64,000 nucleotides of DNA from Tribonema minus (taxonomy: Eukaryota > Sar > Xanthophyceae > Tribonematales > Tribonemataceae), in contig JAFCMP010000179.1 of NCBI GenBank assembly GCA_017506865.1, positions 186,001 to 250,000 on the forward strand. The letters are read 5' to 3'. Positions 1 to 26,945 of the stretch are shown here, piece by piece; the stretch's first letter is position 1; every line of letters starts with the position of its first letter. The translations under genes and the position numbers were made by a program. The notes beneath the pieces were generated by a model. The model was not told the DNA's origin. It searched no databases and worked only from the letters and a program-made list of their open reading frames with translations.

Positions 1-593
1 ACAACGCATGCCCCCTGACCGCAACCTCTAGATCTCTCATTGTGATGCCTGTCTTTGCTGCACTGCAACCCTTAACAATAAGCGCAGGCAGTCTGTTGAC
101 ACCAAATGTTCTGGCAATTTCGAGAGATTGGCTGCTGCAACCCACGCACACTGAGTAGCAGGAAGCAGCATGGGGTTCATCAGAAAGAGTTGTGAAATAG
201 CTGAGAGCTTCGGCGCAGCGCGTGCCTATGTTACAGTGGAGCAGCACGGCGCTTCCTATCGGGACACGGCAGAACTGTGAATAGGAAGTTACAGTGGTGA
301 CTTTCATGTGAAAAGCATACTCACTGACAACGTTCAGAGCTGTCACAAACCCTCTCATTTCTGTACTATGTGAACATTTAATAATTTGCCAGCCAGTTTC
401 GATGCAGATCGAAAGTACCAGTGCATTCTTGGAATGTGATGGTCCACTCCATATATGCGCACCAGTCCTATTACTTTATTGAATCAGATTCAAATAATAT
501 ACATAAATCACGTCAGACTGCGCAACAATTAAATAATGCACATCAGTGTGCAGAGCTCATTCACAACCTCTCTGACCGTCAGTCACTGCAATC
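1..593. other. Intergenic region with no gene seen
   Basis: No convincing coding region or RNA gene is visible here. The last 130 bases before the first gene are A+T-rich, with stretches such as TCAAATAATATACATAAATC near 489, and may hold its promoter. The left edge may belong to a gene outside the window, but no long open frame crosses it. Confidence 0.5.
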
Positions 594-1949
594 ATGACTA
601 AAGCACCACGCAAGACAGCCGAGGAGATCAAGAAGCAGAAACGGCTTTGTGAGAAGGCCAAGAAACCAGACATGCCCGCAAGTGACAAAGGCAAAATGCT
701 GACCCTTGTGAAAATGAAGAAAGCTTACATTTCCTGGGGCTTCAAGCTTGACCCTGATGACAACAAGCAGCAGGAGTTCATCGAAAGCCAGGGAAAGCGC
801 ATGTCTAAGTGCAAGATGCTCCTGGCTGACGGCACAGTCACCCCAAGCTACCACAACATCCAACAGGGCGCCATAAGGCCAGCAAACACGTCTGCTGAGG
901 TTATCAAAGCGCGTAAGGAGGCGGCTAATGCAAAGCGCAGCGCGTCACACAAAGCTCGGGGTCTCGGGCAGAAGCACCACTACGAGAAAGAAACATTCGA
1001 GGCGCTGCTGGATGTCACGGGTCTGCGCAGCGTGCTGGAGTACCATTGGATGCCGGACGGAGCCAATTGCGATGTGGCGCTGAAGAGTAACGACATGGCC
1101 GCGGGAACATACGGCGCGTGTGAGCTCAAGGCATCTGATACAACAGATGGAGGACAATTCAATTTCCACCTGTCAAAAACAGACATGGAGACCAAGTACA
1201 AGGGGAAGCTCATCATCGCGATCGGCTTCAAGCGCGTCAACGGTAAGATCAGAGTCACCCAAGTGTTCGTGCTGTCTGACCCAAAAGATATGCCGGGCCA
1301 ATCGCTGCAACCGATGGTCGATCCGAAGAGAACTGATGCCATTGCCAACCTTCGCATTCGCATGGATGGCGATGAGCAGTACAAGGTGTGCAAGAATACG
1401 ATCCTGGAGGGTGTGCTGAAGGTGCCTCACCACACGCTGGAGGACAACTGCTTCAGCCTTGAAGTCAACCGCAACCTGTCTAGCACTCACAAGACTGAGT
1501 TTATCGGACTTCAATTCATCCAGAATGCGCTGCCCTCGACCACAACAATGACTATGGCCAGCGACAAGAACAAAACTGTAGACTTCAAGTTGCACCGAGC
1601 TGGCGCTGCACTGGGCATATCAGCAAAGACTGCGGTCCTCACCTACAAAAAGTGTGATGGATCTTATTGGGGTTTTCAGTTTGGGACAAATGCTGGACGG
1701 GACCATCACAAGTGCGACTGGGTGTTGGTGGTGTACCTAGACGAGTCACGCACGCTCGTGGAAGGTTTCTCTGTGATCAAAGGCAGCGCAGTGTATACTG
1801 ATGCCAACAAGGGTAAAAAGTTCTATTGGAACAAGAAAGGCCGACAGAAGGGGTTCGATTATGTGATTGAGAAGCACCCAGCATCCGATCTGCCTCGTCT
1901 GGTGGACTTAATGTTCCAGAATCGTGGAGGACAGCAGATCATTCTGTAA
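594..1949 (+). CDS. Unknown protein, possibly two PD-(D/E)XK nuclease-like domains
   Basis: A 451-residue protein I do not recognise by name. The N-terminus is lysine-rich (about residues 1-40). Around residues 155-185 the pattern is an aspartate in CDVAL followed about 20 residues later by CELKAS, which resembles the D...(D/E)XK active site of restriction-endonuclease folds. Near residues 328-345 a second arrangement reads VDFKLHRAG then ISAK, with the same spacing style and similar flanking strands, as if the domain were duplicated. No DNA-binding domain is obvious. The nuclease idea is inference from short motifs; a non-catalytic fold is equally possible. It stands alone upstream of the thioredoxin-like gene on the same strand. 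Confidence 0.6.
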   Translation: MTKAPRKTAEEIKKQKRLCEKAKKPDMPASDKGKMLTLVKMKKAYISWGFKLDPDDNKQQEFIESQGKRMSKCKMLLADGTVTPSYHNIQQGAIRPANTSAEVIKARKEAANAKRSASHKARGLGQKHHYEKETFEALLDVTGLRSVLEYHWMPDGANCDVALKSNDMAAGTYGACELKASDTTDGGQFNFHLSKTDMETKYKGKLIIAIGFKRVNGKIRVTQVFVLSDPKDMPGQSLQPMVDPKRTDAIANLRIRMDGDEQYKVCKNTILEGVLKVPHHTLEDNCFSLEVNRNLSSTHKTEFIGLQFIQNALPSTTTMTMASDKNKTVDFKLHRAGAALGISAKTAVLTYKKCDGSYWGFQFGTNAGRDHHKCDWVLVVYLDESRTLVEGFSVIKGSAVYTDANKGKKFYWNKKGRQKGFDYVIEKHPASDLPRLVDLMFQNRGGQQIIL

Positions 1950-2017
1950 GCAAGAGACATGGACTGGTTAACGTTCTTGAAGTGCGTAATGCGGGTCATT
2001 AATAAAGTGTGCACTAT

Positions 2018-2404
2018 ATGATAACAGCGCAAATGCATTCCATTATGTCTGTCTGTGCCGTGCTCTTAACTATGCTTAGTCGGGCGCAGAGCTTTGCAAT
2101 GAGACCTGCAAGCTGTGTCAGCGACCTCACTAATGTTTATGGCAATCGCGTCGTGCTCTTCCACTCTCGGTACAGTAGTGAATATCGCAAACTTTTGCAG
2201 AATGTTGAGGCTCTTGCCCACTCTGTTCCATCAACCGTTGCCATCTGCGCTGCTTCTGTGGACGGCAATGAATCCCTGGCAATGGAAGCACAAAGGCTTG
2301 GTGTAAACATTCTCCCAGCATTCGCAGTACGCATAGGCACGGCCGAGTTTGTGCTCGAAAGTGATCAATTCGAAAAGTTGGCAACTTTTCTTCTCTCAAT
2401 ATAA
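2018..2404 (+). CDS. Small secreted thioredoxin-fold-like protein lacking CXXC
   Basis: A 128-residue protein with a hydrophobic N-terminus that looks like a signal peptide ending near AQSFA. The following body has a thioredoxin-like rhythm: a strand VVLFHS, then a helix, then a strand with VAICAASVD, then ILPAF, which matches the position of the cis-proline loop. The usual redox site after the first strand reads YSSEYR, so both catalytic cysteines are absent. If the fold is right it is probably a binding or scaffold domain rather than an oxidoreductase. The start is the first ATG in frame; an ATG at 2048 is also possible. Its 3' end overlaps the convergent metallopeptidase gene by nine bases. 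Confidence 0.55.
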   Translation: MITAQMHSIMSVCAVLLTMLSRAQSFAMRPASCVSDLTNVYGNRVVLFHSRYSSEYRKLLQNVEALAHSVPSTVAICAASVDGNESLAMEAQRLGVNILPAFAVRIGTAEFVLESDQFEKLATFLLSI

Positions 2405-3475
2405 GTTCATCCTCATCGAAGTAAACCTCGTGCATCTCACCCACCTCGTTTCTTCGATCAGGGATTGCATGAATGGCGAGTCTTTCGATCCGCACATGCG
2501 TTTTATAGTGTCAGCAAATGTGTCGATGAGTTGTGCGCAAGGTGCAGGCGGTTTCGATGCCATGCGTGTCAGCATGAGCTCCATGAGTGCTGCATCATCA
2601 CGCGCTGCGACCAGCATTGCAGTTTTGAATATGAAGTATTCTAGTGCGTACGTCGATTGCCGCCATGGCACTTGACCTCCACCGTTGAGCAGTAACAAAA
2701 GCGCTGACTGTTGCATGCCGTGCTGGATCTGTGCATCAAGTGCACTCATCACATCTTCACCTGTGTCACACGCATGTGCAATGCACATCAACAATTGCGC
2801 AATAGCTTCAGTCAAGCCTTCGACAGGATTGTAAGCCCCCTGAACCACAAACCAAGTCAGTTCACGCGACATCATGAGACGCCTGCCTTCAGTCATGCAG
2901 TCTGCACCTGTTACATGGATCATTTCGTGCATTATCACTTTTTCCACCTCCTCGCACCTGTACACAACAATGTTATTGGAGTCAGGTGTTACACCAGAGT
3001 TGAGCACTTCAGGTGAAGAAGGACTGTGACCACTGTAGCGGTCATACACTTTTGGGTGGTCGAGCAAAAACACGGTCACGCACAGAGGCTTCTGCAATGT
3101 TTGCGTGATCTCACGCATAAACGTTGTTACTGCAACGACACGGCGTATCAAATGCTGCTCACATGCCAAAGGTGCTGCTGCACCCTTGCAGTACACTCGC
3201 CACGTGCACTCTCCCTGTACAAGTTCAACATAGCCATTCAAGTCAAGCAGAATCGAATCAATCACATGAGGCACTGGAATATTCAAAAACACGAATGCTC
3301 CATTTGGCATATTCGGTGCGCATTTGCGTGCCTGTGCAGCTGCAAATACTTCTGTCACTCTGCTCATGTCATCCAGCGTGAAAGTATCGGTACCTGCGGG
3401 CAACCCCAGGTGATCTGCTACTGCCTCTGCATATGTGTCTTCACACAGCGGACGTGTCAAGCTGACATAAGCCAT
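2396..3475 (-). CDS. Zincin-type metallopeptidase-like protein
   Basis: A 359-residue protein with the zinc-protease signature HEMIHVTG around residue 181, where the two histidines would bind zinc and the glutamate would activate water. About 35-40 residues later EGLTEAIAQ offers a glutamate in the place where gluzincins carry the third ligand. A stretch just before the motif (SGVTPDSNNIVVYR) looks like a substrate-strand edge. No signal peptide or membrane segment is evident, so it would act inside the infected cell or in the particle. Family membership beyond the HExxH signature is not certain. The gene is convergent with the thioredoxin-like gene and lies 17 bases downstream of the start of nothing else, next to the Ig-like gene. 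Confidence 0.7.
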   Translation of the reverse strand: MAYVSLTRPLCEDTYAEAVADHLGLPAGTDTFTLDDMSRVTEVFAAAQARKCAPNMPNGAFVFLNIPVPHVIDSILLDLNGYVELVQGECTWRVYCKGAAAPLACEQHLIRRVVAVTTFMREITQTLQKPLCVTVFLLDHPKVYDRYSGHSPSSPEVLNSGVTPDSNNIVVYRCEEVEKVIMHEMIHVTGADCMTEGRRLMMSRELTWFVVQGAYNPVEGLTEAIAQLLMCIAHACDTGEDVMSALDAQIQHGMQQSALLLLLNGGGQVPWRQSTYALEYFIFKTAMLVAARDDAALMELMLTRMASKPPAPCAQLIDTFADTIKRMCGSKDSPFMQSLIEETRWVRCTRFTSMRMNLY

Positions 3476-3492
3476 GAAACACTATAGCAATA

Positions 3493-4419
3493 TCACGAGA
3501 CAATGACAGTGCATCGCTGCGAGTTGAGACTAAAAGTGTCACCATCACTATAAGTTACTCCACCGATCGTAATGTTGTTGGTGGTCTTGTCGTAGCTGAT
3601 GGACGCGCTTGAGGTGCCAAACGATAGTGTAGCCGTCTGAGAAGTCACTCCAGTGGTGCTGAACGGGATATAAACACTATCACCTTTAGTAGGAACAGTG
3701 GTAGTTGATCCGACTTGAGCCACCTTGGGAGTCACAGCCCTTAAACTGCTGCTTACTTGCGCCTTTACTGCTAGACGGTCTCCACTCGAAAACGCTGTCG
3801 CGACGACGGAAGCAACATTCACGGCGTTGGTGGTATTGGCAATGTATGAGAGATCGTAAACAGGTGCCGCCTGTGCAGGGACAAATGCTGTCTTTGTGAA
3901 ATTCCCTACCGAGTTCACCGCAGTGTTGGTGACTGCAGTGTACTTTAATGCATGAGGCGGGGCACCTGTTGAGGAGGAATACACTTTCACCGTATACTGA
4001 CTGGAAGGCAACAGACTTCGAATTATCAAAGTGTTTGCGCGTGTATTGCCTACCACCACCGTGTCGGTCAGGTCACCTGTCCTAGTGCACGTTACCTTGT
4101 AGGTCAGCTCCCCCGCAACCCTAGACCAAGAAGCATTTATGCTGACAGGAGTTGCTAGCAACACAAGACCAGGAGCGGGCTGAGTCAACGTCACGCTAGC
4201 TGAGCCTGTCGTACCATTTGAAGCAGTCACTGTGACAGAATACACGCCGGCAGCAAGATATGTCCTTGACTGCGACGTGACTGTAGAAGCTACGCCAGCA
4301 TCAGTCCAAGCATATGAGTACGGGCCAGAAGCGCCAGTAACACCACTAACTGTGACGGCGCCACTGTAGTTACCATATGACGTCAAGTTTGTGGCTGACA
4401 GTGTGACTGTAAGGGTCAT
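3493..4419 (-). CDS. Ig-like/fibronectin III surface protein
   Basis: A 308-residue Thr/Ser/Val-rich beta protein. Residues 1-80 have PKD/Ig-like features (PYSYAWTDAG, then YSVTVTASNGTTGSASVTLT). Residues 85-150 resemble a fibronectin type III domain (SINASWSRVAGELTYKV, then LLPSSQYTVKVYSSS). A third beta-rich domain of about 130 residues completes it. No signal peptide is visible, which is usual for giant-virus particle proteins assembled in the cytoplasm. The likely role is a capsid-surface fibre or adhesin. Similar composition recurs in the proteins at 47.9, 55.5 and 62.6 kb. Confidence 0.65.
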   Translation of the reverse strand: MTLTVTLSATNLTSYGNYSGAVTVSGVTGASGPYSYAWTDAGVASTVTSQSRTYLAAGVYSVTVTASNGTTGSASVTLTQPAPGLVLLATPVSINASWSRVAGELTYKVTCTRTGDLTDTVVVGNTRANTLIIRSLLPSSQYTVKVYSSSTGAPPHALKYTAVTNTAVNSVGNFTKTAFVPAQAAPVYDLSYIANTTNAVNVASVVATAFSSGDRLAVKAQVSSSLRAVTPKVAQVGSTTTVPTKGDSVYIPFSTTGVTSQTATLSFGTSSASISYDKTTNNITIGGVTYSDGDTFSLNSQRCTVIVS

Positions 4420-4548
4420 ACTTCAACGGCAGTGTTGCAAAGTGCAAAGATATTTTCAATGCAGTTTGTCACCAACAAACATGAAACAAGAGATTTTGTT
4501 GTACAACATGTATTGATGCGCAAGCGCGAGTGCTGTGTGTGTGCATGC

Positions 4549-7500
4549 CTACGCTGACTTCAACAGGTCTGTGTCGATGGTGTTTGCCGCAATGAAGCGC
4601 CATATTTGGACCGTCTTCGTCTGTCCGTACCTCAACACACGCCCTATGGCCTGCGTCTCCACCGCTGCGCGCTCCTGAGCAGTGGGCAGGAGGACCGGGT
4701 GCAGGAACATGGCGTGATTGGCGACAGTGAGGTTGGCGCCAGATGCGCTCTCCCCCGCAAGATCGAGAAGCAGCACGCGCACATCACCACCTTCCTTCTG
4801 AAACGCTTCCATCGCGGATGTCTTGGTGTGTACGCTGCCCTTGAGCTGAAGCGCCTTGATGCCAGAGTCCTCTAGAGCCGCAGTCACCACCTGCATCAGG
4901 TCCGCGAACTGCACGAACAGCAGTATGCGCTCCTCCGCTGGTATGCCGCGTATGGTTTCGATCAGGGTCGTCAGCTTGGCTCCGAAACGTCCTGAAGTAG
5001 TGGATGACTCGCACCCCAGGTCGGCTGCCTTCACCACGGAAGTGACTCGTGCAGGCGCGGCGCACCCCGCCGTGCAGCACTCCTGTTTCTCAGCGTGCTC
5101 GATGAGGCAGGAGAAGCAGCCACTGTGGCCGCAAGTTGAAAGTATGCTGAGCTCTGTGGGAATCTGGGCGCATGCAGGGCATGCCACCGCCTCCTGTGTG
5201 TTCTGCAGGTCCCTCACCGCTCTGAAGTACCGCAGGCTGCGCATGCGCCCCACCAGCTCCTTAGTGAGACGCCTCAGGTCGTGGACGACCTCTCGAAGGT
5301 TGTACTTCCTGTCCACCATATCGATCTTATCATCGTCCTCGTCGTATGGCAGCACCGCTGCAGACATGATGTTCTCGAGTTCTTTGCACAGAAAGGCTCC
5401 GCACTCCTTGTCTCCGACTCCGGCATCGCCGCGCAGGCTGGACACCCACCTCGAGAACGGGTCTGACACGTCGGTCTCATACTCGGGATCATGCTCAATG
5501 ATGGCCAGGCGCATGCCGCGTGCCTTCAGCGCCGACTTCTTGAGATCCTCAATGCATGACTTGAACTGCTCCAACCTCAGGTCGACTATGGCCTGGCACG
5601 CTTCCTCCGCTGACTCCGAGCCGCCCTCGATATCAAAGTGTGCGCACCGCTTGATGAGCGCTTCCTCTGGTGTGGCTGATGACCCCAGTATGCTGCGCAG
5701 GCGCACATCGCGATCCCCGGTGGCCACCTTGCCAGACTTGATCGTCTTGGCCGACTTCATGTCCAGCGCCTGAAGGTGAGCCTCTAGCTCAATGTAGATG
5801 GCCCTCTCCGCTGATGGCAGGGTGACAACAATGCGTGTCTCCTCATGTGGGATCTCATCTATCTCTGCAATGTTCTGCCGCACAAACCTGTCGAGAAAGG
5901 CCTGCGCAATGTCATGTCGCCGCCGGTGCCATGCTGGCGTGTTCACCTGCTCAAAGTACCGAAACTTCTCTGAAAGCGTCAAGTCCTTCCTGTTGCGCCG
6001 CGGCTCACTGACACCCAGCACCACTCCCAGAAAAGCAGCCGTGCCGTTGATGTCCTCGAAGCACGAGGTAGGCGGTGTTCCGCTGAGACACCACCTGTTG
6101 ACAGCACTGATGCTGGTGACCGCCATCCTGTCCTCACCTGCTAGGTATGTGTACTCATCCACCACAACGCGCTGCCACTTGAACATCTCAAGTGGGGGAC
6201 TGGTCATGAACTCCCATGACGCGAGCATTTTGTCCATGGCGAATGGGTCCACGCGCTTCGGCGTCTTGCGCGTGCGCCGCTGCTTCTCCGCAGGTACTGG
6301 CTGATCAGAGGCAGTGTTGTCGCTGTTGTCACGAGCGCCACCATCTCCGAGTGGGGCAGCTGTGTTCTGCTTCCTCTTGTCGCTGGCATATGCTGCTTTC
6401 TTGCTCTTGAAGTGCTGCACCTCACCGTCCTTTTCGTCAAGGTCCTCGGGCACATCGCGCTCTGCCTCATCCGCCCGCAGTGCATCTGCAAAGCGAGCGA
6501 CGCCCTCCTCTCCGCCTGTCTTCAGCCACTCGACCCTGGTGCGCATGCTCTCGAGATTTTCCCTGTATATGGCCTCAAACATGCGTCCATATCGGGCTGG
6601 CAGCTCTTTGCCCCCTGTGAACTTGATATACCTGTCAAAGTACAGGTCACTCCTGAACACTGTTGCAGCGACCACCACCACATCGCAGTGCTGCAGGTCG
6701 GACACTGTGAGCCTCGACAGGTCTGTCAGAGTCTTGATGAGCTTCACCCGCAGGCACGAGCCCGTGAACTTGATGATCTCTGAGGGCCACTGCTTCATGA
6801 GGTGAGGCGGGGCGATGATGAGGGTGGCGCTCAGGGACACGCGCCCGAACTCGTCAGGTGGGCATGTAGTAGGCATGGAATCGATCAAGGCGAGCGTCAC
6901 TGCAGTCTTACCGTAGCCGACTTGATCAGCTAGAACGCCACCCTTGATAGGTACCATGCGCTGCGCACGCCCCTCAGCCCTCCATCTTAGCGCACCCAGC
7001 TCCTCGCAGACCTCCTCCTCAACCCAAGGGTCCTCACTCCGCTCCTGATTGATCATCCAGCTCAAGCTACGCAGCTGCTCAGGGCGAAGCTGGAACCTGG
7101 AAAAGTGAGGAGGCTGGTCAGATGGAGGGTCGCTGCGGTTGCTGCTGAGAGCAAACACCGGCAGCGGTGTGGCCCTGTCGCAGTCCTCGACCACCCGCCA
7201 CGAGCTTGATATGGGCGTGTCCCCCCTCATCACCTTGCTGAGCGCGCCAGCCGCACGGTGCATCAAGGTGGCTCCGTTGATGGCTATGCGCAAGGTGCCG
7301 GTGCCAGCTTCATCATCGCGCATCATTTGCGCTATGAAAGCGGCAGGGCGCCTCTTGAGCGTCTGTTCGAAAACCCCGGCTTCCACAATGTCCTCCACCG
7401 GCTCAAGCTTGCCGCGGGACGTCCTCACCCACCGCAGGGACGGCTCCCGTGGTGCACACGAGGTGCACAGCGTGCCATCTGATGCATGCTCCTCTGACCA

Positions 7501-10500
7501 CTGGGTGACATGGGACGGCAGGCTGAGGCGCTCTGTGATATGGGCCAAGGAGGAAAACGTTGACCTGAAGCTCTTGGCGGCGATTGTTGTCCATGTGCCC
7601 GCTTCCCCCCATATGCATGCATCCTCCTCCGCCAGCAGCGGCACACTGCAGGTCAAGCAAACGATTGACTCCGCACATCCGCCGTCCGCCGCAGTGTGTG
7701 AGGCGACAGGAGGATGGAACACGACAGCCTCGCATGTGGAAGCACGCATGATCAGCGCGGGCGCTGCCTCCCAAGAGCTGTACCTGGTGGACAGCACCTC
7801 ATCTCCAGCGTCGTCTATGCGCCAGCCCGCCGGCAGGTGGGCGATGATGTCGCGGGTCTGGCTGTAGTCGAGGCGCTCTGGAGTGTGGGAGAACACAAAC
7901 TTGTCCTCCTGTGTCTGCTCGCAACGAGTTGGGTCAATGAACATGAACATGCTCTGCGTGTCATCACCCACACGCTTATGCAACATGCCCAGCGCACCAC
8001 CACACTTGTGCAGCAGCATATACCTTCCGCACACATCCTCAAGGTCACCTGACACAGTCACCGCGCTCCACCGCTGCCTGTCGGAGAAGCCGTCCCCCTG
8101 GAGCCCTAGTATAGTCTCCCATGAGTCCACACGCTCCCCAGTGCCCTCGATGCGCAGGGGGCGCTTCACAATTATGCCAGTATCGCGCACCTCCCATATG
8201 CCTCCGCTGATGAATGACGTGGCATCGTCACGCAGCTTCATCCTAGCGAATGCCGCACACTCCATATCGCCATGTCCTGTGCAAGCGTTCTCAGCGTACG
8301 CCATCCATTCGGCTTTGCCGCCGCGTATGATGAGCTCGAGCCGCGTTCCGCTTGATGGTGATGTGTATACCGCCCGCCAAGCGACCGTGCGCTCGAGGGT
8401 GGTAAAGTAGAAGTGGCCGCCGAGAGCACTGTGCGCGTCTTCTGTAATGTCAAAGCAGACGATCATGGGGATGTAGCGGGTCAGCGTCTTGCGAAAACTG
8501 TCAGGCGATACCCTCTCTACCTGTACCTCAGTGTAGGTATGCTCCGGGCGTCCGGCGCACCGCGAGCAGCACGTGTGGCCGCAGTCGGAGCAGAGCAGGA
8601 TGGAGCTGTCGCTGACGCTGTCCCTTCCCTCGCAGCAGCACATCCTCGCACTTCTGCACGCCATTTCGAAGATGGGAGCCAGAGGCGACAAGTCCGCAGG
8701 GCGCAGGTCCAACGACATTTTGTGCGTGGCACCATGTTCCTTGATCAGCAGCTGCGTCTGAGCACCATCAATGTCCATGGCTCTCTCAGCAGCTCGTACA
8801 GCTGCATTGGCCCAGGGGGCTGCCCTCAGGCCCTCAATGCACAGGCTGAGCGCAGCCACCATCACGGTTCCCACCACAGTCGTGGTCATGGCGTTGCCGG
8901 CAAGATCAGCAAGGTAATCCTCTGTCTCCCTGGTCAGAATGAGGTCATCAACAGGTATGCCCTGCAGCGACAGCGCCTCCAGCCCGATGACAGGGCCACC
9001 ACGGTTGGTTATGTACGGCACCATGGACGGCGTCAGGCACGGGCATATTCCCATCTTGCTGCTGGCAGTGCTCCTGTCAACATTTTGCGACAGGTTCCAC
9101 ACCAGCGTCTTGTAGCATGAATCGACTCCGGTCTTTGCCATCCTGATGTGATTGATGTCCATGAGGTCGAGCACGCGGTCTGTCTGCAAACCAACCAAGC
9201 GAAATCGAGCAAAAAATGTACACAAGAGGGGAAAGGGGGCTACGTCAGGAATGATCAAAACATTACATTACGGTTACGATGGTGCATGCTCTCTGAACGT
9301 GACTGATTGCTTGAGTGTGAGGGTACAGCGACTCGATGACCGTATGGCATGTGTATACTTTGTTGATGTGAATGGACAGGAAATGTCTCCTCCTGAAGCG
9401 TACGATATGGTGTGCTTACCACAGCTGACACCAGCTGCATACATGCAAGACAAGTTTATCATCATGAGAGACTGCACTTATGAGCTTCGACATGATGGCC
9501 ACTGCGCCATCAAATTTTCACCCTCACACCAGCACGTTATCGAATGTGCAGACAATGATCTGCACTTTTGATATGGACTCACCTGTGCTAGCCCCCAGTC
9601 ATGCCACGCAAAGTCGGGCAGCGTGCACAGTCCACCCTCCTCCCAGCCAGTCAGTGGGCGCTTGGAGCCGAGCTCCTCCTCCAGACGAGCCCTGTGGTGG
9701 CGGCTCTCGCACCTCGACCAGTCGACGCGAGCTCGCGTCTTGTTGGCATCCCAAGTCTTGGTGAGATTGGCACGAGCTGTTGCTATGCGCGGGTCGTCGT
9801 TAGGAAGCAAGAAAGCCTCCAGCGTGCTGTTGCTGGGGAACTCAAGCGTCTTGACCATCGACTTCCATGCACCAGGCACATCAGCGTCCCCCCCAAGGCT
9901 CGCGAACAGGTAGCCGCGAGTCCTCGTGTGGGGTATGTAGTAGTTCTTCGTGTCCAGGCGAGCAAAACCGGCACTGTAGCCGTTCTTCTTGAAACGCTGC
10001 ACGACGCTCTCCCAAGGGGCAGAGCAAACATTCTCCAAAATCACAATGGGAGGCTGGTGCTTCTTTACCCAGTTGAGCATACCGTGAAAGGTCTGTCCCG
10101 ACTCACCTCCACCGTCAATGCTCTTCTTCTCATTGTTGAGATTGCTGTAGTCAACACATGACGTCCCCGCAATGAGCATGTCCACCTCACCTGGAACACC
10201 CATCATAGCGCCATAGGCAGTGGTAGCCTTCTCATTCCCCAGCTCGCGCACGTCGCGGAACAGGAGAGGAGGCGCAAAGTTGCGCTGGATGTAGGAAGCT
10301 TTGAACGGCTCAATCTCGCAGCTGAATATGTGCTCGATCTTGAAGTCGACCCCATATACCTCCTTAGCTGCCCTGCTTATCATGCCCAGGGCCAGCAGGG
10401 GGGACTCCGTGCCGCTGCACATGGTGGCGACGCGCAGGGGGCGCCCGAGGGTTGAGATGGCCTCCACAAACTCGGGGCAGCGTGTCACCAGATCCTTGAA

Positions 10501-10632
10501 CATGTCGTACGGAGCCGTCAGTATCTTAGAATTCACATCGCTATCCGCCTTGCCAGCCGCCATAGGACGCGCGCGACCGATAGCCCTGGCTTTAGCCACC
10601 GCTCCAGACTTGACGCCACCAGCCTTGAGCAT
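4549..10632 (-). CDS. DNMT5-like C5 DNA methyltransferase-RING-SNF2 helicase, two exons
   Basis: Two exons, 10632-9583 and 9183-4549, join in phase 0 across a GT-AG intron to give about 1,894 residues. Exon 1 holds most of a C5-cytosine methyltransferase: SAM-binding motif I as MCSGTESP, motif IV as GTSCVDYSNLN with the catalytic cysteine, and ENV motif VI. The missing C-terminal motifs are in exon 2 (ALSLQGIP, then DLAGNAMTTTVVG, motif X). They follow directly after the splice, which supports the join. Next come a CxxC zinc cluster near residue 540 and a SNF2 helicase: Walker A in DQVGYGKTA (about 1105), DEYT box (about 1360), LSGTPPT. A RING (CPACAQIP...CGHSGCFSCL, about 1690) is inserted before the C-terminal lobe, which ends with QAIGRVLRYGQTKTVQIWRF. 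This is the domain set of DNMT5, the ATP-dependent maintenance methylase of fungi and algae. No chromodomain is visible. An upstream ATG at 10773 is possible. Confidence 0.85.
9184..9582 (-). other. Intron of the DNMT5-like gene (399 nt)
   Basis: On the minus strand the donor reads CAG|GTGAGT (exon ends at 9583) and the acceptor GGTTTGCAG|ACA (exon resumes at 9183). Both junctions are phase 0. Reading through the donor gives a stop in a low-quality tail, and reading back through the acceptor gives no methyltransferase sequence, whereas splicing restores a continuous methyltransferase C-terminus. The intron contains an intact open frame on the plus strand. Confidence 0.8.
9251..9571 (+). CDS. 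Small unknown protein nested in an intron
   Basis: A 106-residue open frame on the strand opposite to the DNMT5-like gene, lying wholly inside its intron. The protein has a balanced, coding-like composition with alternating strands (SVRVQRLDDRMACVYFVDVN, then KFIIMRDCTYELRHDGHCAI) and no low-complexity sequence. I do not recognise it. The upstream ATG at 9152 is in frame but lies inside the exon of the other gene, so 9251 is the better start. The size and the compact beta-like pattern resemble other small single-domain unknowns in the window. Confidence 0.55.
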   Translation: MIKTLHYGYDGACSLNVTDCLSVRVQRLDDRMACVYFVDVNGQEMSPPEAYDMVCLPQLTPAAYMQDKFIIMRDCTYELRHDGHCAIKFSPSHQHVIECADNDLHF

Positions 10633-10781
10633 CTTGAGCAGATCACGCAAGCAACACACTAGCAACGGTGCCAGAGGTTGTGAATGCATGTGCATGTGCT
10701 GCTGCTGCCCAATTAAATGCTGAATCTTCGGGGATCGGCAAATAATAATCAAACTCCGGACCCCGGGATTCAAGCGTTGGA

Positions 10782-11713
10782 ATGCAACTGCGTTCTAACG
10801 CATCCGACCGTTTGCTTCCAGCAACAAATTCATTGCAGCAGCAGCACCCTGACGCCATGGAGGTGACAAAGACCTACGATGCGGTGAAGATTGAAGAGAC
10901 ACTGCGCATCACACTAAAGGGGTGCGCCGGCGCCACGGGTAAGTGGTGCGATCGCTCGCTGTGTTGATAGCCGAAACACACATGCCAGCCATACTAACGC
11001 CGTGTCCCTCTCTCCTTGCAGAGGTCATTTACAGTGAAGGGCATATGGACCAGGATGAGATAGCCTACTATGACAAGGTCCAACGCACGGGCAAGACAGA
11101 CCGGCTTCTTCTGCCATTATACTGCGGGCTCCGACCTATACCTACAAGTTTGTTGTGCGAAGAAATGAGGAAGCGGTGCGAGGAGCACCAGAACTTTGTG
11201 CTGGAGCACAGGGACTCACATTACTTTTACACTGCTGACATCATCAAGGCAATGTGCAAAGCTGTCAAACTTCACCCCGGCACAGTTATGGCAAAGATCA
11301 CATTGACTCAGTGCAAGGAGTGCACAGTCAAAGAAGCGATGGAAGCCATTGCGAGCCAGGAGTTGCGAAACACCATGTGGAGTCAGGTGCTTCAATGCAT
11401 TCAAGATTTTGCATCGCTCGGCGGCTTTCACTGTGGTGAGACCCTCCTCCTCGATCACTTCATCCTGTCCAACGGCCGTGTCTACATGGACGTCGGTACG
11501 ACATGTTTCGACCTCAGCAAGTTTGCATATGCTCCTACACCGCACGAGGTGTATGAGTATCATGTGCAGGTCATGATGCCGCAAGTCCGGAAATTCGTCT
11601 CCGCAGAGTGCTTGCAGGGTCTGCTTCAGCCTGGCAGTGAACAGAAGTACAAACAGATGCAGGAGCTGCTGCCAACACTTGCGCCGTTGGGGCTCACAGA
11701 TAAGTGCCGATAA
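10782..11713 (+). CDS. Possible kinase-fold protein, two exons
   Basis: Exons 10782 (or 10857)-10938 and 11022-11713 join in phase 1 over an 83-nt intron, giving 257 residues from the inner ATG or 282 from the outer one. The intron has donor G|GTAAGT, a TACTAAC-type branch site at 10992-10998, a pyrimidine tract and CTTGCAG. The start of the second exon reads EVIYSEGH. Late in the protein a stretch GETLLLDHFILSNGRVYMD followed by VGTTCFDLSKF is reminiscent of a kinase catalytic loop and metal-binding aspartate, but no clear glycine-rich loop or DFG is present. Function is therefore unassigned. Its end overlaps the convergent next gene by 20 bases and it is divergent from the DNMT5-like gene. 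Confidence 0.6.
10939..11021 (+). other. Intron with yeast-like branch site (83 nt)
   Basis: The donor is GTAAGT, a TACTAAC box lies about 24 bases before the acceptor, and the acceptor is TCTCCTTGCAG. This is the most canonical spliceosomal intron in the window and serves as a model for the others. Confidence 0.8.
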
Positions 11714-13498: not shown

Positions 13499-14206
13499 CT
13501 ACTCATCCAGCATGAAAATTTTGCTTGTGAGTCGTTGCACTTCGGTGACGGGTGTAGAAGTAGTTAGCCTCCTCAGCACGTCTCGATGCCCACGCTTTTC
13601 AATGTCTACAAATAACAGGGTGATCCATGGTGCAAAAGCAGCAAGAAAACACCATTGAGCCCCCACATTCTTTGTCGCACCGTATACCCAGTAGCTGAAG
13701 GCGTAGCTGATGAAGTTCATACTAGTGAAGAAGAGGGCATACTCGAGGCCGTATGCAGCCATCATGCCAAGACAGCATAAGAAGAACATGTAGTATACCC
13801 TTGAGTGAGCTGCATTGTTCCATGCCCAGTACAAGTGACCACCTGAGTCTGGAGTAACCACAGTGCAGGCATCATTGGTGACAAAGCTCGTATAAACTGC
13901 AGACACCACAAGGAAGATGCACATTATGATGTGTACAAAAGCCGGCATGGTGCGCCGCCTCGCCAGCAGTATGCCAATCCAGAGTGATATCGGCTCAAAG
14001 TGGTTGACTAGGATCAGACAATGTGTGGTTATCACATTCAAGTCGTTGCAAGAATTGTTCATGTGCAAGATGAACTCACCGAGCTGCATTTGAACTACAC
14101 ATGCAAAAAACATTGCTTCAGCATGAAGTCTGTACCTGTACAGCGCATAGCAGCCGAGCATGCCAACTGTATACGCTGCGATCGAAGTTGGAGCGTTGTA
14201 GCACAT
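13499..14206 (-). CDS. Polytopic membrane protein
   Basis: A 235-residue protein starting MCYNAPTSIAAY, with about six or seven hydrophobic segments (for example MLGCYALYRY, IIMCIFLVVSAVYTSF, YYMFFLCCLGMMAAYGLEY, WCFLAAFAPWITLLFVDI). The tail is basic and cytosolic-looking (EKRGHRDVLRR). The MC(Y/F)-A--S- opening recalls a family of uncharacterised membrane proteins also found in bacteria and algal viruses (DUF6629-like, recalled rather than searched). Role unknown; a virion or host membrane location is likely. Confidence 0.65.
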   Translation of the reverse strand: MCYNAPTSIAAYTVGMLGCYALYRYRLHAEAMFFACVVQMQLGEFILHMNNSCNDLNVITTHCLILVNHFEPISLWIGILLARRRTMPAFVHIIMCIFLVVSAVYTSFVTNDACTVVTPDSGGHLYWAWNNAAHSRVYYMFFLCCLGMMAAYGLEYALFFTSMNFISYAFSYWVYGATKNVGAQWCFLAAFAPWITLLFVDIEKRGHRDVLRRLTTSTPVTEVQRLTSKIFMLDE

Positions 14207-16480: not shown

Positions 16481-19255
16481 TTGTGTCATGAGGCTTAGTA
16501 TGGCTACACACAGTGCAGGGGAAGTTAGAACCTGGCTTGACCTCACCTACACGTTCAATATTGATTTATGATAATTTGCTGATCTTGACAGGCCCAGCCT
16601 CAGGGACTTCAATCTTAGCATAAGCTCAACTTTGTGCTGTATGACTCAGCAAGGTGGCAGAGTCAAGGACTTCAAGTACACACACAAGTGCAAGTGTGGG
16701 ACCTCAGGCTCAGTATGGTCGCTGCTCGTGTAGGGAAAGCTTGAACCCGCACTAGACTGATCTCACCTACACTTTCGATCAGGAGCCTGATTTATTTGCA
16801 CTTTACGAAAATCTAGCGAGCGTCGTACCGGCGCCATTTAGGGTCAGCCTCTGAGAAATACTTTTTTCGACAGGCCCGGCCTCAGGAACTTCAACTTTCA
16901 ACATCAGTTCAAGTTCAAGCACAAAGGCTTAGTGTGAGCAGCACTCGTGTAGGGACAGTTAGAACCTGCATCAGACTGATCTCACCTACACTGTTGATGT
17001 TGAGCCATGATTGTTGGGCATTCAAAGTAAGTTCAAGTGTACACAAAAGTTCAAGTGTGGGCCTCAAGGCTTGGTATGGTGACTTCTCATGTAGGTAAGG
17101 GTTGCACCTGCATCAGACTGATCTCACCTACACTTTCGATCAGGAGCCTGATTTATTTGCACTTTACGAAAATCTAGCGAGCGTCGTACCGGCGCCATTT
17201 AGGGTCAGCCTCTGAGAAATACTTTTTTCGACAGGCCCGGCCTCAGGAACTTCAACTTTCAGCATAAGTGCAAGTGTGGGCCTCAGCTCTTTGTATGGCT
17301 AGCATTCTTGTAGGGACCGCTTGAACCTGCAGCAGACTGATCTCACCTACACTGTTGATATTGCGCCATCATTGTTGCCTTCAAAGTAACTTCAAGTATA
17401 TACTAAAGTTCAAGTGTGGGCCTCAGGGCTCAGTATGGTCGCTGCTCATGTAGGGAAAGCTTGAACCCGCACTAGACTGATCTCACCTACACTTTCGATC
17501 AGGAGCCTGATTTATTTGCACTTTACGAAAATCTAGCGAGCGTCGTACCGGCGCCATTTAGGGTCAGCCTCTGAGAAATACTTTTTTCGACAGGCCCAGG
17601 ATCAGGAACTTCAACTTTCAGCATAAGTTCAAGTTTGGGCCTCAAGGCTCAGTATGGCTAGTACTCGTGTAGGGACAGTTAGAACCTGCATCAGACTGAT
17701 CTCACCTACACTGTTGATGTTGCGCCATGATTGTTGGGCATTCAAAGTAACTTCAAGTATATACTAAAGTTCAAGTGTGGGCCTCAAGGCTTGGTATGGC
17801 GACTTCTCATGTAGGTAAGGGTTGAACCTGCATCAAACTGATCTCACCTACACTTTCGATCAGCAGCCTGATTTATTTGCACTTTACGAAAATCTAGCGA
17901 GCGTCGTACAGGCGCCATTTAGGGTCAGCCTCTGAGAAATACTTTGTTCGACAGGCCCAGGATCAGGAACTTCAACTTTCAACATAAGTTCAAGTTCAAG
18001 CACAAAGGCTTAGTGTGAGCAGCACTCGTGTAGGGACAGTTAGAACCTGCATCAGACTGATCTCACCTACACTGTTGATGTTGAGCCATGATTGTTGGGC
18101 ATTCAAAGTAACTTCAAGTGTACACAAAAGTTCAAGTGTGGGCCTCAGGGCTCAGTATGGTCGCTGCTCATGTAGGTAAGGGTTGAACCTGCATCAGACT
18201 GATCTCACCTACACTTTCGATCAGGAGCCTGATTTATTTGCACTTTACGAAAATCTAGCGAGCGTCGTACCGGCGCCATTTAGGGTCAGCCTCTGAGAAA
18301 TACTTTTTTCGACAGGCCCAGGATCAGGAACTTACACTTTCAGCATAAGTTCAAGTGTGGGCCTCAAGGCTCAGTATGGCGAGTACTCGTGTAGGGACAG
18401 CTTGAACCTGCATCAGACTGATCTCACCTACACTGTTGATGTTGCGCCATGATTGTTGGGCATTCAAAGTAACTTCAAGTATATACTAAAGTTCAAGTGT
18501 GGGCCTCAAGGCTTGGTATGGCGACTTCTCATGTAGGTAAGGGTTGAACCTGCATCAGACTGATCTCACCTACACTTTCGATCAGCAGCCTGATTTATTT
18601 GCACTTTACGAAAATCTAGCGAGCGTCGTACCGGCGCCATTTAGGGTCAGCCTCTGAGAAATACTTTTTTCGACAGGCCCAGGATCAGGAACTTCAACTT
18701 TCAACATAAGTTCAAGTTCAAGCACAAAGGCTTAGTGTGAGCAGCACTCGTGTAGGGACAGTTAGAACCTGCATCAGACTGATCTCACCTACACTGTTGA
18801 TGTTGAGCCATGATTGTTGGGCATTCAAAGTAACTTCAAGTGTACACAAAAGTTCAAGTGTGGGCCTCAGGGCTCAGTATGGTCGCTGCTCATGTAGGTA
18901 AGGGTTGAACCTGCATCAGACTGATCTCACCTACACTTTCGATCAGCAGCCTGATTTATTTGCACTTTACGAAAATCTAGCGAGCGTCGTACCGGCGCCA
19001 TTTAGGGTCAGCCTCTGAGAAATACTTTTTTCGACAGGCCCAGGATCAGGAACTTCAACTTTCAACATAAGTTCAAGTTTGTGTCACAAGGCTGAGTATG
19101 GTGAGTACTCGTGTAGGGACAGCTTGAACCTGCATCAGACTCATCTCACCTACGCTGTTTAACATATTGAGACGTCATTAATGGGCACTCTAACGAACTT
19201 CAAGTACACACACAAGTGCAAGTGTGAGCCTCAGGGCTCAGTATGGTGCAATGCC
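16481..19255 (+). repeat. Array of about 360-bp tandem repeats (left array)
   Basis: A marker within the unit, TTTATTTGCACTTTACGAAA, starts at 16791, 17152, 17511, 17872, 18233, 18593 and 18954, so the period is 359-361 bases with high identity. Each unit is itself a diverged dimer. Both halves carry GATCTCACCTACAC; one continues into TTTCGATCAGGAGCCTGAT (a near-palindrome) and the other into TGTTGATGTTGCGCCATG. Outer copies are degenerate. No long open frame is kept through the array, so it is probably non-coding: a structural, origin-like or recombination element. Confidence 0.9.
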
Positions 19256-19582: not shown

Positions 19583-21361
19583 CTACTGAGGCAATGGTTT
19601 TAGGCCACCATAGCGTACAGGAATGTGCCGACCTCTGCATGCTACCTTGAGCTTGTGCCACACCGAGTGAGCACAACGGCGCACCTCGTCAGGGCTAGCG
19701 CTGCCCAAGAAAAGGTGCTTTGCACACGTCACCGCCTCCTGCATGGTGACAATCTTGTGAACGTCGCCCGACTCGTACATGTACCGTGTCACCGGCACCG
19801 AGCCACCGAATCTCAGCGCCACTTCGTAGGGCGATGACCCTTCATCAAGTACCAATTTTGCCCCTGGTAGGAGTGCGATCTCGGACTCCTGTGCGAACAC
19901 AGACCTCAAAACAAACGGTATGATTGGCTGGCCGGCACGGACAACAATCTCGATCACGTGCGCCACGGCTTTGCGCCCACCCCCATGTGTAAATCGAATA
20001 GCAACATCCTTGTCCATGCTACAACTGTAGAACCCCCTAACACAGATATTGCTGGGAAGAGGCTTGTTGACTGTTTGGCCCCTGTACAGGACCAGATCTC
20101 GTGGCGCCCTGAACCAGAAGAACAGAATGAGCGCCACATTTACGATGCTCCTGATTGAGTGCGCATTGTCAACAAACATATCGCTCCGCAGTGCCGCGTT
20201 CGCGTTCTCAAACCCGGGGCCCGTGTAGTATTTGTACACTTTGGTGAGCACACTCTTGACCTCGTCAGGGAACAAGGCGTCGCACGCATTAAGGACTTTG
20301 TCGCCCTGGTCATTCATGTCTGCGGCACCCATTCTTGTCGATTGCAGGAACATGTCAGTAAAGTTCTTCTGCAGGAAGGACCGAAGCGACTCATCCAATG
20401 ACGTCTCTGCTGCACTGAGTTGTTCCCCACACCCAGCCGCCAGCTCGTAGTAGCGTTGCAGAAGGAATGGAGTCTCTGTCGTTGCCGCAAGGCCTACCGC
20501 GTAGGCGGCGTTTACGAATCCCCGCTTCCACTGGTAAGTTGGGACGTGGTTCTTGATGCCCGGAAATATTTCATACAGCAACGTGGCCAGAGTCGGTTCA
20601 TTTTGCACAATCCACGGCAGCGACGGGCGAAGCACTGTGGAAGTGACTTCGAACAAGGTTTCAAGTTCCACTGCGACACTCGTGCCCGCCGCAAAGTACA
20701 GGGCCACGACAGCAATCTCTTTCCAGAACTTGCGCGGGTCCAACAAGCCCCGCCAGTGGTTGAACTCGCGCCAGTGGGAATTTTCGTCAATGGCGCGCTT
20801 GTAGTGCTCCTCCATCTTCTCCATCTGCTCGCTCGTCAATCGCACGTAGTCGGCATATCTGTAGAGCAAAAGGGTGGGCTGCAGACCCTCTAAGTCCAGC
20901 GTCGGCTCTCCCACATGCGCGCTCTCAGCAGTCACCGCAATCGCGGACGTCAGCAGCACTTGCGCGAGCGACAACTTACTGATGCCGCTCTCAGTTGCAT
21001 CTTCTGTCGGCGTTGCGGCTCTGCTTGCGGTGCCTACGCACCCTGTCTCGATGTGATTCTCGAGGGCATATAGCAGGTCTGGGGTGTAGGACAATGTAGA
21101 CTGGCTCCCCCGTCTGAACTTGTGTTGTGCAACATCGGAGTCGTTGTCAGATCGTCGACGCTTGCATATCGTCCCCTGTGTTGCCTCAAAAAGCCGTGAC
21201 GCCACAGTGGGCTCGTTCTCCACCACTAACGACTTGAACACCTCTGCCAGCTCCACCAACATGCTATTTGGCCATTGCCACATATTATTTAGTGCACAAA
21301 TCACTGCAGAGTAAAGGGCAGCTGTGACGGGTTTTATTAGACTTGAATGCTGGTGATGCAC
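19583..21361 (-). CDS. ADP-ribosyltransferase-domain protein
   Basis: A 592-residue protein. Its C-terminal third has the R-S-E signature of arginine-type ADP-ribosyltransferases: LVLYRGQTV (about residue 428), GFYSCSMDKDVAIRF (about 443) and the ExE turn QESEIALLPGAKL (about 488). It would transfer ADP-ribose from NAD to a protein or nucleic acid. The N-terminal part contains an internal duplication: LVVENEPTVASRLFE near residue 50 matches WIVQNEPTLATLLYE near residue 260, each after an ALY helix. This supports the upstream start. No signal peptide is present, so it probably acts inside the host cell. The gene sits inside the repeat array next to a macro-like fragment. Target unknown. Confidence 0.8.
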   Translation of the reverse strand: MHHQHSSLIKPVTAALYSAVICALNNMWQWPNSMLVELAEVFKSLVVENEPTVASRLFEATQGTICKRRRSDNDSDVAQHKFRRGSQSTLSYTPDLLYALENHIETGCVGTASRAATPTEDATESGISKLSLAQVLLTSAIAVTAESAHVGEPTLDLEGLQPTLLLYRYADYVRLTSEQMEKMEEHYKRAIDENSHWREFNHWRGLLDPRKFWKEIAVVALYFAAGTSVAVELETLFEVTSTVLRPSLPWIVQNEPTLATLLYEIFPGIKNHVPTYQWKRGFVNAAYAVGLAATTETPFLLQRYYELAAGCGEQLSAAETSLDESLRSFLQKNFTDMFLQSTRMGAADMNDQGDKVLNACDALFPDEVKSVLTKVYKYYTGPGFENANAALRSDMFVDNAHSIRSIVNVALILFFWFRAPRDLVLYRGQTVNKPLPSNICVRGFYSCSMDKDVAIRFTHGGGRKAVAHVIEIVVRAGQPIIPFVLRSVFAQESEIALLPGAKLVLDEGSSPYEVALRFGGSVPVTRYMYESGDVHKIVTMQEAVTCAKHLFLGSASPDEVRRCAHSVWHKLKVACRGRHIPVRYGGLKPLPQ

Positions 21362-21425
21362 AAATCGAATTCCACACTCTCCTTAACTTGTCGATGGCTG
21401 AAGTTCATGCCATTGACGAGTATGG

Positions 21426-21683
21426 TCATGTGCAACAAGCAGCATCGATCATGCGCGCCATGTGCGCATCGACACTGCGGTAGTGACAAACGTGCACATC
21501 CAGACCCGCTCCTTCCGCGTGAAGCACCTGTACTGCGCGCCCAATAGCCTCAGCGATCCAGCTCTGGGGATTGGCGTAGACACCGCCACCTACAAAGGTC
21601 AAAAACACTTGGCGCACGCCACTCACCTGCGCGTTCAGGACAGCTGCCCACAGTGTGGCTTCGTATATAGCGTCAAGCACCAC
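21426..21683 (-). pseudogene. 5'-truncated macro-domain-like fragment
   Basis: An 85-residue frame with IYEATLWAAVL, then VFLTFVGGGVYANPQSWI and AIGRAV. The block 'hhLT-hGGGhFxN--xWI--AI--A' is what I recall from the C-terminal half of macro-like ADP-ribose-binding or hydrolase domains in large viruses and protists. The first half of such a domain is missing. The frame begins exactly where the 360-bp repeat sequence resumes (about 21690), so the gene appears cut by the repeat. Placement next to an ADP-ribosyltransferase fits a writer-eraser pair. Assignment is from memory of the motif. Confidence 0.45.
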
Positions 21684-21689
21684 GTGCGC

Positions 21690-22335
21690 CAGGGTCAGCC
21701 TCTGAGAAATTCTTTTTTAGACAGGCCCAGCATCAGGAACTTCAACTTTCAGCATAAGTTATAGTGTGGGCCTCAGGCTCAGTATGGTGAGTTGCCATGT
21801 AGGGACAGCTTGAACCCGCACCGGACTGATCTCACCTACACTGTTGATGTTGCGTCATGATTGTTGGGCACTCTAAAGAACTTCAAGTACACACACAAGT
21901 GCAAGTGTGGGCCTCAGGCTCAGTATGGTGAGTTGCCATGTAGGGACAGCTTGAACCCACACTAGACTGATCTCACCTACACTTTCGATCAGGAGCCTGA
22001 TTTATTTGCACTTTACGAAAATCTAGCGAGCGTCGTACCAACCCCATTTAGGGTCAGCCTCTGAGAAATACTTTTTTCGACAGGCCCAGCATCAGGAACT
22101 TCAACTTTCAGCATAACTTCAAGTTGTGTCACAAGGCTCAGTATGGTGAGTTGCCATGTAGGGACAGCTTGAACCTCCCTTAGCTTGATCTCACCTACAC
22201 TGTGATGTTGCGCCAAGATTGTTTACACTGCGTGGTCATTCTGCAACTCCAGGCTCATCACAAGTTCAAGTTCACTATGGTGACAAACAGTTTAGGGACA
22301 GCTTGGAGCTCTGCACGCCTGACCTCACCTACGCT
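21690..22335 (+). repeat. 360-bp-type tandem repeats (second block, same orientation)
   Basis: The sequence resumes with GGGTCAGCCTCTGAGAAAT and carries one full core copy (TTTATTTGCACTTTACGAAA at 22001) and several half-units with CTCACCTACAC. It ends in degenerate copies shortly before the polymerase promoter. Orientation matches the 16.5-19.3 kb array, so the ADP-ribosyltransferase segment looks like an insertion into one array. Confidence 0.85.
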
Positions 22336-22444
22336 TTCGATCCGAGCAACAATTGATCTGGTACAATAAAGTACAGCTTTCGAACCAGGATTCGATGGTG
22401 AATCTGGGCGCAATTAACGGCGCAAAATTCGAATCACCTTAAAT
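22336..22444 (+). promoter_or_regulatory. Promoter region of DNA polymerase with TTCGAT/TTCGAA motifs
   Basis: Within 110 bases before the first ATG there are TTTCGATCC, TTTCGAACC, ATTCGATGG and ATTCGAATC, followed by an A+T-rich TTAAATATG at the start. The same hexamer family clusters upstream of other genes in the window. Confidence 0.45.
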
Positions 22445-25400: not shown

Positions 25401-25672
25401 TATCCGGGTTCATTGAGGGATACACTGAGAAACATGAACAATACAGTGCGAGGCCCACGGCTGTGCTGACGCCTCCAGAGGGAGAGGAGTCAAAGAAAAG
25501 GCCACGTCAGGCAGGGTTGGGGATGTTCGGAATGACAAGCAGCAGTGGCGCTAGCAAGTGGGCAGTGGAGGTAGTCAAGCCAAAGCGCAAGCCGGCACAA
25601 TCCAGCGGAGGGGGGGCAGCCAAGAAGTGTAAGCAGCAGACGACCTTGGTGTGGCACACCGCCGTGAATTGA
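22445..25672 (+). CDS. polB: DNA polymerase family B catalytic subunit, three exons
   Basis: Exons 22445-23677, 23778-24743 and 24863-25672 join in phase 0 to 1,002 residues; the ATG at 22493 (MKLFLLHAAY) is an alternative start. Exonuclease motifs are YDLETTG (about 200), GYNLTFDNKF (about 283) and YYCAID (about 414). The last is created by the first splice (RGE|IAYYCAID). Polymerase motifs are DFASLYPNLM (about 508, with N where S is usual), KKVACNSAYG (about 612) and GGDTDSVF (about 661). The second splice restores the thumb-proximal KKK|NYAAM. The tail is Lys/Ser-rich with QAGLGMFG, which could be a weak PCNA-binding motif. This is the replicative polymerase of Nucleocytoviricota, normally intronless in most families. 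No intein is seen. Confidence 0.95.
23678..23777 (+). other. PolB intron 1 (100 nt)
   Basis: Donor GAG|GTGAGA, an AAACTAAC branch-like box about 35 bases before the acceptor, and acceptor TTGCTGCTGCAG|ATT. Phase 0 on both sides. Reading through meets a stop after CTGTCAAGC. Confidence 0.9.
24744..24862 (+). other. PolB intron 2 (119 nt)
   Basis: Donor AAG|GTAAGC, a long T/G-rich tract, and acceptor TTGCCATTGCAG|AAC. Phase 0. The intron is open in frame for part of its length, but its translation (hydrophobic and Cys-rich) has no counterpart in family B polymerases. Confidence 0.85.
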
Positions 25673-25682
25673 CATTTGCACT

Positions 25683-26807: not shown

Positions 26808-26945
26808 TGTGCTTAGCTGCTTGACTCTATCGAAATAAAAAAGACATTTGCAGTTTAGCGCAGTAACATTGTAGCGTGCACACGCTGTTGTCCACCAGTG
26901 ACATTGTTTATTCTATTATATTTGCTGTTTCACAGCAAGCAAGTG
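26808..26945. promoter_or_regulatory. Divergent promoter between GH26-like and HSF-like genes
   Basis: A short A+T-rich spacer between divergent genes. On the left, CTATCGAAATAAAAAAG faces the glycosidase; on the right, TTTATTCTATTATATTTGC faces the HSF-like gene. The ATCGAA hexamer recurs in other promoters of the window. Confidence 0.4.

Follow-up and report, generated by a model that had tools for sequence, protein, structure and literature searches.

Does a gene for a maintenance-type DNA methyltransferase that stands among virus-like genes in an algal genome form a single gene, and is it a gene of the virus or of the alga? The question is raised by a window of 64,000 nucleotides (C179:186001-250000, on contig JAFCMP010000179.1) in the 158-Mb, 554-contig assembly of Tribonema minus. 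Two frames on the reverse strand of this window together resemble DNMT5, which is described as a maintenance methylase requiring its SNF2 ATPase (PMC9998398, PMC10538959). Positions are those of the window unless a contig is named. An earlier note on this DNA had proposed that the two frames become one protein when a 399-nt phase-0 intron is removed, and that the split falls inside the methyltransferase. The parts of the gene are the following.

9583-10632, reverse strand: DNMT5 exon 1, 350 codons, with the N-terminus and methyltransferase motifs I, IV, VI and VIII
9184-9582, reverse strand: DNMT5 intron, 399 nt, GTGAGT...TTTGCAG, GT-AG, phase 0
4552-9183, reverse strand: DNMT5 exon 2, 1544 codons, with motif X, the SNF2 ATPase and RING-like cysteines
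4549-4551, reverse strand: DNMT5 stop codon

The joined DNMT5 gene

When exon 1 was searched alone, its residues 43-350 matched residues 294-606 of PDB 7r76 (E 4.1e-120), which is the Dnmt5 of Cryptococcus, deposited as 'DNA repair protein Rad8'. A separate search with exon 2 found this chain again, at residues 607-848 and 891-2261 (E 3.5e-290). The exon boundary thus corresponds to 606|607 in 7r76, the first match ending at 606 and the second beginning at 607, and because the separately searched exons abut at this point of one chain the join is not a chance one. In-frame stops are present within the 399-nt intron. A deposited Tribonema minus protein, P0001 (JKP88DRAFT_161808), is 97% identical to exon 2 and reads ...DWGLAQTDRVLDLM... 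over the junction, which is the same exon join as in the window gene. The start codon at 10632 (MLKAGG) is backed by the start of a second deposited protein, P0002 (MLKSGK). These comparisons confirm the frames at 9583-10632 and 4549-9183 as the predicted exons of one DNMT5 gene. Both proposals of the earlier note held, since both frames match 7r76 and P0001 has the same join, and the methyltransferase is indeed divided, with motifs I, IV, VI and VIII on one side of the intron and motif X on the other.

The domain content agreed with this assignment. The C5 methylase family PF00145 was detected in the first frame with 52.1 bits (cut-off 22) and the SNF2 family PF00176 in the second with 61.5 bits (cut-off 24.9). 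Two further matches in the second frame fell below their cut-offs, Helicase_C with 22.9 bits (cut-off 23.5) and RING with 10.6 bits (Pfam cut-off 21); a CGHxGC pattern is present. All of the methyltransferase motifs I, IV, VI, VIII and X were found by pattern, as were Walker A, Walker B and motifs III, V and VI of the SNF2 part, and the P0001 gene model places the SNF2 ATPase and the methyltransferase on the same polypeptide. Motif IV had been read as departing from the usual PCQ, and it is GTSCVDYSNLNN, of the TSCVDYS type, common to the cellular relatives that were inspected. The chromodomain had been reported as absent, and no Pfam match to it was found in either frame; the window protein has only 42 residues ahead of the match, against 293 in the Cryptococcus chain. 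Its absence is compatible with DNMT5 membership, because a precomputed PF00385 match is given for some but not all of the relatives listed (best 120 of 515). DNMT1-type BAH and replication-foci domains likewise gave no Pfam match in either frame.

The earlier note had left open a bacterial methylase lying beside an unrelated Rad5-like helicase. This candidate was ruled out, both exons matching one DNMT5 chain; the 7r76 matches and two trees assign the protein to DNMT5 rather than to two unrelated genes of those kinds. The DNMT5 grouping holds by whole-length homology and by tree.

Viral surroundings of the gene

The earlier note had also placed the gene in a giant-virus-like genome. Giant-virus DNA was found here, with capsid, VLTF3, DNA polymerase B (PolB) and virus-restricted neighbours, but it is endogenous in an algal contig and not the genome of a free virus. 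The capsid of nucleocytoplasmic large DNA viruses (NCLDV) gave 10 matches in the genome, including C179 (470 kb), C90 (1095 kb), C21 (307 kb) and C112 (1104 kb), and VLTF3 gave eight, including the same four contigs. PolB follows DNMT5 at a distance of 10-31 kb to the right on all four, at 210 kb on C179, 821 kb on C90, 118 kb on C21 and 1310 kb on C112. All three hallmarks occur together on C179, C90, C21, C112 and C223, and DNMT5 matches were detected on four of these five contigs, not on C223. C179, C90 and C21 measure 1195936, 1361928 and 483246 bases. The open reading frames (ORFs) and the polymerase around the window gene are as follows.

594-1949, forward strand: 451-aa ORF, a conserved neighbour, 60-61% in C90 and C21
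2396-3475, reverse strand: 359-aa ORF, six matches, only on the contigs with viral-type DNMT5 (C179, C359, C90, C21, C112)
3493-4419, reverse strand: 308-aa SprB/fn3-like ORF, 96% in C90 and 77% in C21, with weak Pfam matches
10943-11713, forward strand: ORF conserved in C90 and C21
11694-12272, reverse strand: ORF conserved in C90 and C21
12294-12668, forward strand: ORF conserved in C90 and C21
12655-13317, reverse strand: ORF matched in C90 only
13499-14206, reverse strand: ORF conserved in C90 and C21
15457-16071: ORF matched in C90 only
22445-25672, forward strand: PolB in three frames, PF03104 and PF00136, split alike in C90
23678-23777 and 24744-24862, forward strand: candidate GT-AG introns of the C179 PolB

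DNMT5 is flanked by this polymerase on one side and, 7.7 kb to the left, by a gene of 810 aa on the other. The 810-aa gene had 17 matches on nine contigs: C179, C90, C21, C112, C223, C9 and C144, each with capsid or VLTF3 matches, the near-copy C359, and C467, for which no viral hallmark match is to hand. Seven ORFs flanking DNMT5 have counterparts next to DNMT5, in conserved order, on C90 as well as C21, and the C90 version of the ORF at 10943-11713 contains one stop. The 10 kb to the left of the window are 95-97% alike between C179 and C90. The ORF at 594-1949 is only 61% alike in C90 whereas its neighbours exceed 88%, which may be read as a sign of exchange. The tested ORFs at 19583-34818 had no match in the C90 and C21 stretches compared, which end short of PolB.

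On C112 the polymerase occupies a single open frame (967 aa). Its best matches came from the other T. minus elements and from metagenomic proteins, among them P0159 (55%), which lies on a 30-kb contig. PolB matches on C490, C516 and C520 consist of many short pieces, as expected of intron-bearing host genes. Against solved structures the best match of PolB was Pol delta (106 bits, in one piece), which alone is not diagnostic of virus or host. One scan of viral contigs, made with few exact peptide patterns and no positive control, gave no relative of the C112 polymerase.

Since virus-restricted genes and conserved gene order surround it, DNMT5 appears to lie inside the viral DNA and not at its rim, the borders of the element being unmapped. 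On gene content and order, we assign the window gene to an endogenous giant virus, of the kind termed xanthovirus in PMC13236599 and PMC12993054, where Tribonema capsid and PolB genes are described as the sister group of those of phaeoviruses. An ordinary host gene adjoining a viral insertion, or a duplication of host segments, could also bring such genes together, and the likeness of C90 and C179 (91-97% over the stretches compared) and the unmapped borders speak in its favour. The virus-restricted genes on both sides of DNMT5, however, and a remnant on C112 that sits between VLTF3 and PolB, leave this explanation with very little probability. A host gene next to an insertion is disfavoured by the conserved neighbours, PolB and the virus-restricted genes, with the same reservation about borders.

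Selection, copies and origin

Both DNMT5 exons are stop-free in C179, C90 and C21. Between C179 and C21 the ratio of nonsynonymous to synonymous substitution rates (dN/dS) was 0.127 for exon 1 (343 codons, dS 0.93) and 0.162 for exon 2 (1538 codons, dS 1.11), and between C179 and C90 it was 0.171 (dS 0.037) and 0.129 (dS 0.094), respectively. The catalytic motifs are retained, by pattern, in the viral copies. Relatives were drawn from two match lists, the top 120 of 515 and the top 120 of 364, which gave 154 proteins besides P0001 and P0002; 30 of these entered a first tree, 19 a second, and 29 a count of invariant positions. At the 245 columns that do not vary among those 29, the conserved residue is retained by the window exons in 93 of 97 and 144 of 148 comparable columns, by C90 in 236 and by C21 in 234. 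The viral DNMT5 copies are thus shown to be under purifying selection.

The matches in the genome included further, incomplete copies. Exon 2 had 17 matches, on C179 (three), C359, C90, C21, C112 and C14 (ten), and exon 1 had 12, on C179 (two), C359, C90, C21 and C14 (six) and as a fragment on C547. The exon 2 copies of C90 and C21 are 97% and 72% identical to that of the window, and the homologous introns there measure 395 and 378 nt. The 18.7-kb contig C359 is 99.98% identical to window positions 1454-11355 and is perhaps an alternative haplotype. The C112 remnant (C112:1298152-1299810) is a 600-aa C-terminal SNF2 frame that lacks the methyltransferase and Walker A; it begins at exon 2 residue 960, and Walker A is at 756. 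A second relic on C179, at C179:301796-302409, covers the exon-junction region, and a small exon 1 fragment lies at C547:342486-342596.

Such remnants (those on C112, C179:301796-302409 and C547) would be expected if a host gene had been swept into one virus as an inert passenger and were now decaying. Three full stop-free copies with intact motifs and dN/dS of 0.12-0.17 argue against a functionless gene, and we regard this explanation as highly improbable. The retention on C112 of an SNF2 frame only could also suggest that the SNF2/RING half serves viral replication or repair, as Rad5 does, with methylation secondary. This role is improbable too, though slightly less so: the C112 frame starts after Walker A, so that ATP hydrolysis is unlikely, and in C179, C90 and C21 the methyltransferase half is the better conserved, with dN/dS of 0.12-0.17 in exon 1.

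The viral intron itself contains a conserved gene on the opposite strand, newly described here.

9251-9571, forward strand: gene of 106 aa within the DNMT5 intron

The introns of C90 and C21 hold a frame with the same start, end and length. Between C179 and C21, mismatches in this gene numbered 32, 20 and 61 at the three codon positions, and dN/dS was 0.20 in frame, whereas the two shifts of the frame gave 1.26 and 2.40. An equally long open stretch arose in six of 2000 shuffles of the window intron. No Pfam family was matched at E 0.05, and the four matches in the genome are all in these DNMT5 introns or on C359. The nested gene may explain why this intron is retained while other host introns are absent from the viral gene: the single intron may persist since a small viral gene occupies its opposite strand.

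Apart from the element copies, T. minus has its own DNMT5 on C14, in many pieces or exons across about 20 kb. No capsid, VLTF3 or PolB match was found on C14, nor were viral neighbours, and the gene is 48% identical to P0001. It reads DWGRSQ, then GT...AG, then VDRVLD, which is the same phase-0 intron site as in the viral gene. No deposited protein equal to C14 was present among the best 120 of 364 matches, limited to 0.55-1.75 times the query length. In the first tree (35 rows) the C14 copy was the sister of the viral clade with a Shimodaira-Hasegawa-like approximate likelihood ratio (SH-aLRT) support of 99, and in the more careful second tree (22 rows) with 99/99. Left out of the second tree were the C112 fragment, the long-branch P0122 and P0017, the window's own exon and nine rows removed to thin out groups. 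Several of the rows are metagenome proteins taken as cellular, and no row is a named diatom or pelagophyte; unusual composition of C14, C90 and a few others, and a long C112 branch, were flagged as warnings. The shared intron site alone is no proof of host origin, because the element PolB also seems to have introns. The simplest history suggested by these comparisons is the capture, by an ancestor of the virus, of DNMT5 with at least this one intron from an alga of this lineage; ochrophyte sampling is thin and the donor is not pinned.

Proposed role and known systems

We think it probable, with substantial room for doubt, that the gene is a true DNMT5 of an endogenous giant virus, captured from an alga, which would act in ATP-dependent CG maintenance of viral or proviral DNA. 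The viral protein would be a maintenance methyltransferase that preserves CG methylation when viral or integrated DNA is replicated, by which latent viral DNA could stay quiet and yet heritable. In a diatom, a knock-out of DNMT5a loses CG methylation (PMC9998398). A more far-reaching version, which we hold only tentatively, is that a latent giant-virus lineage uses a captured host maintenance machine to inherit its own silence, and that expression of the intron gene perhaps opposes DNMT5.

Several observations limit the case for a viral maintenance role. The DNMT5 of the alga itself might serve equally well. Because the C112 element lost the methyltransferase half, the enzyme is not essential to every such virus. 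Taken as a proxy for methylation, the observed/expected ratio of CpG points neither way: it was 0.68-0.94 in C179 and C90, only mildly lower than in host C14 (0.94-1.10), and was 0.92-1.05 in C21. DNMT5 was not found in three scans of IMG/VR viral contigs (two by exons, one by alignment), which rest on few exact peptide patterns without a positive control. The tyrosine recombinase family PF00589 had no match genome-wide, with a Pfam model that is maybe too distant; phaeovirus-like tyrosine recombinases are reported in Tribonema (PMC13236599).

The alga might instead use the element-borne DNMT5 as its maintenance methylase, so that selection acts on the host and not on the virus. The copies are intact and lie in host-sized contigs (0.48 to 1.36 Mb), and an earlier survey lists T. 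minus without DNMT1 and with DNMT5 (PMC10538959). However, the alga has its own gene on C14, the element copies stand at dS of about 1, which implies constraint through a long separate history, and viral gene order around the copies is conserved. We consider such domestication rather unlikely, and retain maintenance of viral DNA as the preferred reading.

If this reading is true, methylation becomes a viral tool, where studies of endogenous giant viruses mainly view CG methylation as an action of the host on the virus, and the locus would allow a direct test of how giant viruses in latency are kept silent while still being inherited. The host DNMT5, viral copies that differ in age and decayed ones are found together in this one genome. 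The presence of DNMT5 in T. minus was already known (PMC10538959). Both deposited T. minus DNMT5 proteins inspected (P0001 and P0002) come from viral regions, and a survey that counted DNMT5 as algal may have counted a viral gene; the C14 host gene exists nonetheless.

Other C5 methyltransferases were observed in the genome, where 123 of 378 candidates were scored. Many lie in open frames over 1000 aa, L030 alone being inspected. L030 (C84:57500-66500, 6-5708 on the reverse strand) is a frame of 1901 aa or more from a Gypsy-like retrotransposon, in the order C5 methyltransferase, reverse transcriptase, RNase H, integrase. DNMTs carried by retrotransposons have been described in dinoflagellates and a charophyte (PMC5890265), and L030 may add a third lineage. 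Open frames of 367-390 aa encode stand-alone C5 methyltransferases on C223 (L001 and L002), which has capsid, VLTF3 and PolB, and on C181 (L003), which has PolB; their layout is unrelated to that of DNMT5. The window has these further features, and units similar to its tandem repeat occur in C90.

16669-19247: tandem array, 361-bp unit, 7.1 copies
35308-37690, forward strand: HSP70, in two frames
40988-42928, reverse strand: PAS hybrid histidine kinase, a type for which phaeoviruses are noted (PMC12993054)
45019-47634, reverse strand: EsV-1-7 cysteine-rich repeat protein, 871 aa
60502-61286: tandem array, 361-bp unit, 2.2 copies
62592-63950, reverse strand: phage tail-collar domain protein

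No report of a giant-virus DNMT5 was found in a literature search that had most subscription journals outside its reach, and none appears in the available portions of PMC12344493, PMC11244446, PMC13236599, PMC12993054, PMC10538959, PMC9998398, PMC13076208, PMC12477816 and PMC5890265. As in xanthoviruses and phaeoviruses, NCLDV capsid and PolB genes are present in the Tribonema genome, in long-term endogenous elements (PMC13236599, PMC12993054); unlike the window, the account of xanthoviruses in PMC13236599 gives no DNMT or methyltransferase by term search of its available text. Brown algae are described as lacking DNMT1, 3 and 5 (PMC13076208).

In being a cytosine C5 methyltransferase with a giant-virus link, the gene resembles the DNMTs described in giant viruses and in the endogenous elements of Amoebidium and Acanthamoeba (PMC12344493, PMC11244446). 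Those orphan DNMTs stand outside the DNMT families, mostly without companion domains, whereas the window gene is a full DNMT5 fusion; giant-virus DNMTs are reported to have no robust support as sisters of eukaryotic families (PMC12344493). With Phaeodactylum DNMT5a and other stramenopile DNMT5s it shares the fusion of methyltransferase and SNF2 helicase, RING being optional; those are cellular genes (PMC9998398). The C14 gene is its sister in the trees and shares the phase-0 intron site, but differs in its many exons over about 20 kb and in having no viral neighbours found. Like Cryptococcus neoformans Dnmt5 (PDB 7r76, 7r77, 7r78 and 7t02), the protein is a collinear methyltransferase-SNF2 chain, with a putative RING, over most of its length and has a TSCVDYS motif IV, and unlike it the window gene has a viral context, a short N-terminus lacking the chromodomain, and one intron with a nested gene. 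Judged by these likenesses and differences, the locus would combine an enzyme already known with a viral setting that is new and a gene nested in its intron.

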